Below, piece after piece: positions 33,148 to 34,297 of a DNA stretch of 64,000 bases. Source of the DNA: Acetobacter tropicalis (GTDB taxonomy: Bacteria; Pseudomonadota; Alphaproteobacteria; Acetobacterales; Acetobacteraceae); assembly GCF_001580915.1 (NCBI RefSeq), contig NZ_LHZQ01000211.1, positions 1-64,000 of the forward strand, given 5' to 3'. The translations under genes and the position numbers were made by a program. Position 1 is the first letter of the stretch. Every line of letters starts with the position of its first letter. The notes below the pieces were generated by a model that ran no database searches, was not told the origin of the DNA, and worked only from the letters and a program-made list of their open reading frames with translations.

Positions 33148-33574
33148 CGCCTCTTACCTTGCATTGTCATACCTTCTCTAGGGCTTTTTATCAGATCAGC
33201 ACAGCATGTCAGAAGTCCACATGGCAAAAACCATCATAAAAAAGAGAATTTCTTCAGTATTTCAAAAAATAAAGCAAAGATTCAAAAAGTTATTATTTAC
33301 TTTCTTATTTATTACATTAACTTAATAAATATAAGATCAAGTGTGCCGTGATTTCTATTTATCAACACCAGATTGTAAGAAATTCTCAATCATAAGTTGC
33401 AACATTCAGATTCAAAACGCGTTATGCGTTAATTGCATACCCTTAAAAAGATACAACCAATGGTGGTAAAAAATTTGTTTACGTTATATGAAAGGGTATG
33501 AATTGATATTATAACACCTCGAACACAACCATTGGGTGTGTTTGTACTCTCTTCCGGGAGAAGGGACTAACGCC
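33148..33574. other. AT-rich intergenic region upstream of the CtrA-like gene
   Basis: These 427 bases hold no gene. From 33241 to 33360 I count 25 G or C in 120 bases (21%), far below the rest of the window. The region probably carries the promoters of tsaE and the CtrA-like gene. The TTAA words at 33317, 33322, 33429 and 33443 do not have the 7-base spacing of a full CtrA box. Two similar words, ACAACCAATGGTGGT near 33453 and ACAACCATTGGGTGT near 33525, may be regulator sites. Confidence 0.7.
33475..33502 (+). promoter_or_regulatory. Possible promoter of the CtrA-like gene
   Basis: TTGTTT (33475-33480) and TATGAA (33497-33502) are separated by 16 bases and lie about 70 bases before the start codon. 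In sequence this AT-rich such words occur by chance, so support is weak. Confidence 0.3.
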
Positions 33575-34297
33575 ATGCGAATTCTATTGGCCGAAGACAA
33601 CAATGCTGCAACTCAAACGATTCTTCCCGTTCTTATACACGCCGGACTTCACGTAGATGTGACCGAGACGGGGCGCGGCGCAATTGAAATGCTCCGCAAT
33701 TATACGTACGGTTTGGTAATTGTAGAGTTATTTCTGCCCGATATGGATGGCTACGACTTTATTGCCTCTCTCCGGGCGCGAAAAATTCAGACTCCTATCG
33801 TCATCTTATTTTCAATTGGTGCAGATGATTATCTGACAAAACCTTTTGACCCGGAAGAACTTGTTGCACGGGTTCAGGCTATTTTAAGACGGTCTAACGG
33901 TTATTGTCAGCCTATCACGGAAGTTGGCAATCTAGCTCTTGATCTCAACCAACATACCGTTACCGTGGCGGGCTTGCCCGTTCATCTAACAGGAAAAGAG
34001 TTTGCTATTCTCGAACTTCTTGTTCTGAGAAAAGGCGTTTCTTTATCCAAAGAAGCTCTCCTCAACCACCTTTACGGTGGGCATGATGAACCAGACATCA
34101 AGATTATTGATGTCTTTGTATGCAAATTACGCAAAAAACTTCAGGCTGCTGGAGCGGGAAACCTCATTTCCACCATTTGGGGACGTGGGTATGTTCTCAA
34201 TGACCCTCCGCCGAAAAAGCCCGCAGCGCACCAGATCAATGCCGCCAGGCATTATCAGGAAAGCCGGGCTCCTCAACTCCAGGCAGCCGGAGAATAA
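33575..34297 (+). CDS. CtrA-like response regulator with Glu in place of the phospho-acceptor Asp
   Basis: An OmpR/CtrA-family DNA-binding regulator of 240 residues. The winged-helix half is strongly CtrA-like: HLTGKEFAILELL, NHLYGGHDEPDIKIIDVFV, CKLRKKL and WGRGYVL. The receiver aligns without gaps to Caulobacter CtrA through residue 78. The position of Asp51 holds Glu (YGLVIVELFLPDMDGY), and about 12 residues between ILFS and GADDYLTKPF are missing, which removes most of the beta4-alpha4 loop and helix alpha4. Glu7, Asp8 and Lys89 of the acidic pocket remain. It should not be phosphorylated normally and may be permanently active. The C-terminus ends QAAGE, not the Ala-Ala that CtrA uses for ClpXP. 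The ATG at 33575 has AGAAGGG upstream. The gene stands alone after an AT-rich gap; it is probably a paralogue of the main CtrA. Confidence 0.85.
   Translation: MRILLAEDNNAATQTILPVLIHAGLHVDVTETGRGAIEMLRNYTYGLVIVELFLPDMDGYDFIASLRARKIQTPIVILFSIGADDYLTKPFDPEELVARVQAILRRSNGYCQPITEVGNLALDLNQHTVTVAGLPVHLTGKEFAILELLVLRKGVSLSKEALLNHLYGGHDEPDIKIIDVFVCKLRKKLQAAGAGNLISTIWGRGYVLNDPPPKKPAAHQINAARHYQESRAPQLQAAGE

Follow-up and report, generated by a model that had tools for sequence, protein, structure and literature searches.

CtrA is a cell-cycle and motility regulator of Alphaproteobacteria, controlled by the CckA–ChpT–CtrA phosphorelay. The CtrA box is TTAA-N7-TTAA, the Ala-Ala end of the protein is its ClpXP signal, and in Caulobacter the D51E substitution mimics phosphorylated CtrA. 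Atypical OmpR/PhoB regulators such as ChxR of Chlamydia and HP1043 of Helicobacter, which have lost the phospho-acceptor site and kept the DNA-binding domain, are reported to form dimers with constitutive activity (PMC3960148). A review of pseudo-receivers gives Glu as the commonest replacement of the Asp, able to activate in part, and records that a Glu at this position was disproved as a phosphomimic in some response regulators (PMC12632262). Members of the relay are absent to varying degrees in Rhodospirillales (Brilli 2010, PMC2877005), where a 2021 location study found ctrA, gcrA and ccrM in 72–82% of genomes and chpT, cckA and divL in 27–36%, with hard-to-find homologues as a possible cause (PMC8116508). 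A replacement of Asp51 goes unmentioned in the accessible portions of these two papers (PMC2877005, PMC8116508), and the accessible portions of the open-licence literature yielded no report of such a replacement in CtrA, or of CtrA control in Acetobacter.

The gene described here lies in the window, i.e. the whole 64-kb stretch of DNA that was analysed, which is contig C79 of a 3.56-Mb genome in 222 contigs (99.99% complete) from the family Acetobacteraceae. The closest named ctrA is that of A. senegalensis LMG 23690 (86% in the best segment), and the DNA identity of ~83% over 10.8 kb around ctrA suggests that the two belong to different species. The features are as follows.

33575 to 34297, forward strand: ctrA orthologue, 240 amino acids (MRILLAEDNN...QLQAAGE), from the ORF translation.
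33575 to 33892, forward strand: pseudo-receiver domain, residues 1–106 (PF00072 at residues 3–101, 66.1 bits).
33725 to 33727, forward strand: codon GAG for Glu51, the phospho-acceptor position (ORF translation and alignment).
33806 to 33811, forward strand: junction of a 36-base in-frame gap between codons 78 and 79, with Ser79, the β4–α4 loop and helix α4 missing.
33923 to 34207, forward strand: winged-helix DNA-binding domain, residues 117–211 (PF00486 at residues 135–208, 75.1 bits).
33523 to 33541, no strand assigned: imperfect inverted repeat ACACAACC-ATTG-GGTGTGT, ~50 bases 5' of the ATG, found by eye.

The three CtrA strings named in the first-pass annotation are all present in this ORF, and among NCBIfam models that of CtrA (NF045991) is far ahead (280.3 bits over residues 1–211, the next family reaching 143.5). 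Since 280.3 bits falls short of the equivalog cut-off of 350, descent from CtrA is claimed and standard-CtrA status is not. The view that the protein is a paralogue, which might compete with a normal CtrA, has to be given up: searching the entire genome at the protein level returned the window ctrA and nine weaker matches (best 36% identity, E 3.1e-30). No second CtrA was found and, the genome being nearly complete, the window gene is the CtrA orthologue. A single ctrA match each (threshold 1e-40) was found in 33 of the 36 same-genus relatives, and 357 of the 397 family genomes, our own counted, have a match. The three same-genus genomes in which a match is absent at this threshold are G011, G015 and G019, two of them only 1.5–1.7 Mb in size.

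The top Foldseek matches of the window protein are OmpR/PhoB-type regulators. Its receiver retains Glu7, Asp8 and the Lys of the KPF motif, residue 51 is Glu and Ser79 has gone with the gap; a receiver fold is thus recognised and phosphorylation residues are missing, which makes the protein a pseudo-receiver regulator. The DNA-binding domain is identical to that of A. senegalensis at 89 of 95 residues. The neighbours of ctrA in the window look like tsaE, thiD, glmM, folP and ftsH. Among 29 loci from Acetobacter (L009–L037), one pattern picks out 19 with a repeat similar to that upstream of the window gene, at −43 to −52; the palindrome centres on ACAACC-n3/4-GGTG, a looser form being visible by eye in other Acetobacteraceae. 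It is possibly an operator or an RNA hairpin, and Rfam returned no match around ctrA, this palindrome included.

That residue 51 is Glu, as the first-pass annotation had it, is borne out by the GAG codon and is not a sequencing slip, since Glu51 is common to relatives (A. senegalensis, A. fallax, A. musti and A. oeni). Elsewhere in Acetobacter the residue is Asp (A. orleanensis, A. indonesiensis), Thr (A. lovaniensis, A. okinawensis, A. syzygii, A. lambici, A. fabarum), His (A. pasteurianus), Asn (A. garciniae) or Ser, so that Glu is not strictly required there. Lys101 and Asp8 are missing in many of the aligned CtrAs. A full E7 D8 D51 K101 site is found in a group that includes A. orleanensis (L009, L011–L014 and L081), whose genomes have no ChpT match and, in the three tested, no CckA match either. 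Glu51 together with His8 is seen in L199 (genome G141) and L132 (a Proteobacteria MAG), both apparently outside the Acetobacter clade and possibly a second, independent D51E, G141 being placed by a weak fork of the FtsH tree discussed below. L218, L220 and L221 (G128, G156 and G083) form a separate relay-less lineage, in which residue 51 is Arg or Ser and the receiver is strongly altered. At L405 (G122:C1:2264000-2265300) the ctrA frame is broken within the receiver in a genome with ChpT and CckA matches, and its sister G244 is intact.

The Pfam ChpT family has no match in any of the 37 genomes of the genus Acetobacter (our own included), and is matched in 18 of 24 genomes from elsewhere in the class (the Caulobacter control being positive) and, above cut-off, in 219 of the 397 family genomes. 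Pfam alone was found to be too weak in the family, G087 for example being matched at 4.7e-4 by Pfam and at 5.2e-43 by a family-built model. The NCBIfam CckA model (NF046020) was rejected as a presence test since it is noisy and kinase scores run together: its scores in our genome are 309–340 bits at most, and the two most clear-cut CckA candidates among relatives, with 430 and 475 bits, are also below its cut-off of 1000. A CckA model was therefore built from three candidate rows, alongside a ChpT model from five Acetobacteraceae rows, and both were run on 80 genomes picked by hand, 51 of which had been chosen for lacking a good Pfam ChpT match (including G153, 79% complete). The ChpT model matched 24 genomes at 91–300 bits, the other listed matches scoring no higher than 45.7 and lying nearly all in long kinase frames, and the CckA model matched 23 at 431 bits or more, with other matches at 373.1 or less. 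Genomes that supplied model rows match by construction (two of the 24 for ChpT, G066 and G400; three of the 23 for CckA, G066, G081 and G091).

ChpT, CckA or both are thus present in 25 of the 80 genomes. Neither was matched in any of the 51 genomes selected as lacking ChpT; for ChpT this confirms a choice, while CckA had played no part in choosing. Among the other 29, ChpT is absent in five (G099, G101, G135, G147, G222) and CckA in six (G079, G099, G101, G135, G202, G222), these genomes being 73–92% complete with the exception of G202. Within the genus, the two family-built models matched none of 14 genomes. In our own, the best ChpT score is 37.6 bits, within a 770-residue kinase frame, Pfam ChpT gives nothing, and the CckA model has no match at 1e-90; nor was ChpT or CckA matched in any tested genome of the Acetobacter-containing clade. 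The suggested freedom from CckA–ChpT is supported by these searches and by the sharing of Glu51 among relatives. In one relay-bearing genome (L262, G400:C34), ctrA and chpT are ~6 kb apart and flank a che cluster made up of cheB, a cheY-like receiver, cheW and cheA, an arrangement that agrees with a role of CtrA in motility in Acetobacteraceae.

CtrA was readable in 77 of the 80 genomes, 24 relay-bearing and 53 relay-less. All 24 of the former have Asp51 and a complete E/D7-D8-D51-K101 site. Asp51 has been lost in 38 of the 53 relay-less genomes (Glu in 27, Ser in three, Asn, Ala and Arg in two each, His and Thr in one each), and the site is complete in seven; the 27 with Glu51 span 18 genus codes among the 77. 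The survival of Asp51 in the other 15 means that Glu51 is no necessary outcome of relay loss and that another phosphodonor is possible there, five of these 15 being drafts 73–90% complete, as are three of the seven with a full site (77–90%). A wider set of 135 rows, in which many ChpT calls come from Pfam alone, comprises 80 relay-less and 48 relay-bearing rows and, counted apart and all with Asp51, five unsure drafts and two genomes of the class without ChpT. The site is complete in 48 of 48 relay-bearing and 7 of 80 relay-less rows. L213, L215, L216 and G029 (receiver start misaligned) were left out before both counts.

The order of events was approached by parsimony on a tree of FtsH from 76 of the 80 genomes (three without a match and one matched at 47% being dropped), which was rooted on the relay-bearing core and carried 73 known residue-51 states. 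Asp comes out as ancestral, with 15 changes. In the Acetobacter-containing clade, where Glu51 is found in 24 of the 36 readable tips, one of these changes, from Asp to Glu, falls near the base. Asp51 was lost separately in G141 (Glu), in G128, G156 and G083 (Arg, Ser) and in G061 (Ala), and apparent returns from Glu to Asp occur in G004 together with the A. orleanensis group, in G120 and in G106. The relay-less G116, G131 and G240, which branch before the Glu step, retain Asp51 and have Gly at position 8, from which relay loss seems to be earlier than the change of Asp51 to Glu. Across the tree set, all 38 non-Asp51 CtrAs are in genomes without relay matches, and all 22 relay-bearing genomes have Asp. 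Only four independent pairs can be drawn on the starred branches, Asp51 tracking the relay in one or two of them with no difference in the others, so that significance is out of reach (the sign test on these four pairs is not significant). As 21 of the 73 inner branches are open, some branches are long and the fork at which Glu becomes certain has a support of 55, the association between relay loss and Asp51 loss is best described as suggestive, resting as it does on few independent events and falling short of statistical proof.

These observations are brought together in a reading that we hold to be likely from the sequences, in which the window CtrA is an orthologue that has turned into an orphan pseudo-receiver regulator, its DNA-binding half conserved and its activity probably phosphorylation-independent. 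The ancestor in Acetobacteraceae would have had the CckA–ChpT–CtrA relay, which relatives in the family and class retain, and CckA and ChpT would have been lost en route to the Acetobacter-containing clade, in which models that detect the relatives' copies find no matches. The phosphorylation site would then have been free to change, as suggested by early relay-less branches in which Asp8 is gone and Asp51 still present, before Asp51 became Glu, presumably once, near the base of the clade. Glu51 may have yielded a CtrA that is phosphorylation-independent and at least partly 'on', with its DNA-binding half under constraint and its output determined by synthesis and breakdown of the protein instead of by a kinase; in many response regulators, though not in all, Glu at this position is a partial phosphomimic. 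After CtrA had become independent, the receiver could have drifted, residue 51 included, and α4 would have been deleted in the lineage of the window. It is more tentatively proposed, as a possibility we would not yet favour, that selection fixed the phosphomimetic Glu51 in the clade ancestor after the relay was lost, so that CtrA stayed on, leaving a constitutive factor for which dose is the signal and of which intermediates and Asp51 returns survive.

Much of the divergence has been borne by the receiver, which has a mean pairwise identity of 0.495 against 0.715 for the DNA-binding domain in relay-less rows, and of 0.754 against 0.827 in relay-bearing rows of the family. Where the DNA-binding domains are 0.70–0.75 identical, the mean receiver identity is 0.488 for relay-less pairs and 0.655 for relay-bearing ones, and this extra divergence is gone in the 0.90 and 0.95 bins (0.867 and 0.935 relay-less, 0.824 and 0.939 relay-bearing). 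When 14 named or uncultured Acetobacter loci are set against the window, the receiver is the protein segment with the lowest conservation in 13 of them, or in 11 once the window gap is disregarded. Such a pattern could also be expected if a relay-less CtrA were drifting to oblivion, Glu51 being a neutral stop, the loss of α4 the next step, and the protein doing little. A single third-base substitution turns Asp into Glu, and was followed by a drift to Thr, His, Ser and Asn (and Ala), with which relaxed constraint and activity are equally compatible. The many losses of Lys101 and Asp8, the varied residue 51, the three same-genus relatives without a ctrA match and the broken ctrA frames at two loci (L215 and L216) point the same way. 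CtrA boxes are also few: the genome has 12 TTAA-N7-TTAA sites where the reversed control has 35, inspection of the neighbours of these 12 by eye led to no recognised flagellar or cell-cycle gene, and the window has none, a zero that carries no information with 0.23 expected. The box search therefore lends no support to activity of the Glu51 protein. We nevertheless regard decay as unlikely, because a ctrA match is retained in most genomes of the family and the relay-less DNA-binding domain, at the identity given above, holds 22 of the 30 positions that are invariant in relay-less CtrAs. Moreover, the frame is intact with a dN/dS of ~0.03 between the window and A. senegalensis genes, a rough value since dS is saturated (~1.9 overall and not computable for the DNA-binding part). 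Glu is also the commonest replacement of Asp51 in the wider set (43 of 65), although a single change passed on by descent accounts for many of the 43.

The C-terminus bears on the orphan CtrA proposed here in a different manner. As the first-pass annotation had noticed, it is not Ala-Ala: the window protein ends in Gly-Glu, and so does that of A. senegalensis. The escape from ClpXP that had been read into this fares less well, the signal being indeed absent but its absence weak as evidence, since relay-bearing CtrAs often do without it too. A final Ala-Ala is found in 28 of 37 relay-bearing CtrAs of the family and 18 of 80 relay-less ones, and is thus missing in nine and 62, respectively, and in 10 of 11 relay-bearing CtrAs of the wider class.

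The deletion over the β4–α4 loop and α4, put at about 12 residues in the first-pass annotation, amounts to exactly residues 79–90 of L112, the ungapped A. senegalensis orthologue (252 residues, Glu51), and is in frame. In AlphaFold2 models, both built on an alignment of 21 rows, α4 spans residues 84–93 of L112 and is lacking in the window protein, for which mean confidence is 51 in residues 81–90. In the alignment of the window protein with 167 other rows (168 in all, some being the same gene from two collections), all 12 columns are missing in one other row, L213, which was rejected as a truncated CtrA because its contig ends there; L215, with its broken frame, lacks five of them. Glu51 is kept in relatives whereas the deletion is found in none with a complete frame, and the two features can no longer be seen as one design, the gap being confined to the window genome and A. 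senegalensis having Glu51 without it. Judged from these alignments, the gap is a private, probably later change that needs confirmation, and Glu51 an old one. The presence of the gap in a single draft genome of 222 contigs would be accounted for if it were an artefact of assembly or sequencing and the true protein a 252-residue Glu51 CtrA as in A. senegalensis; this is improbable given that the gap is in frame, its junction clean and contig-internal, and the gene otherwise undamaged. Least probable of all is that the relay has been swapped, another kinase phosphorylating the Asp51 forms and a partner protein or ligand controlling the Glu51 forms, an idea to which the full site and inferred Glu-to-Asp return of the relay-less A. 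orleanensis group and the 13 HisKA matches in our genome (two in one frame) might appeal, and with which the impossibility of an aspartyl phosphate on Glu51 and the lack of a regulator or kinase frame beside ctrA, adjoined by presumed tsaE- and thiD-like genes, are at odds.

An orphan, probably phosphorylation-independent CtrA is best appreciated next to the systems it resembles. It shares with relay-controlled CtrA, whose phosphorelay is present in other Acetobacteraceae, the domain plan, the status of single orthologue and long identities in the DNA-binding half, and differs in the absence of CckA and ChpT matches, in Glu51 instead of Asp and in its missing α4 and Ala-Ala end. The residue and its replacement are identical to those of the laboratory D51E mutant of Caulobacter, but here the change is natural, the relay itself is gone and residue 51 has changed again in several species. 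Like ChxR and HP1043, the window protein has lost the phospho-acceptor site and kept its DNA-binding domain. While these regulators dimerise via α4–β5–α5, the window protein is without α4, which would weaken the usual dimer, so that it probably binds DNA mainly via its effector domain. With respect to the Rhodospirillales studies, the family-built models tie the absence of the relay to the fate of the phosphorylation site. Models of CtrA control from Caulobacter should thus not be transferred unchecked to acetic acid bacteria, a label that we infer for the Glu51 clade from Acetobacter, its one named genus. The route from receiver to pseudo-receiver is little understood, and its steps stand here side by side in one family and in a single-copy orthologue: relay with Asp51, relay lost with Asp51, Glu51, other residues and Asp51 again. 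It could thus be asked directly whether a phosphomimic that arose in nature carries a regulator through the loss of its kinase. The kind of protein is a known one, the pseudo-receiver regulator; what is new is that it is CtrA, with relay loss and site change traceable and, unlike for ChxR and HP1043, with the ancestral relay and the intermediate states still visible in its relatives.
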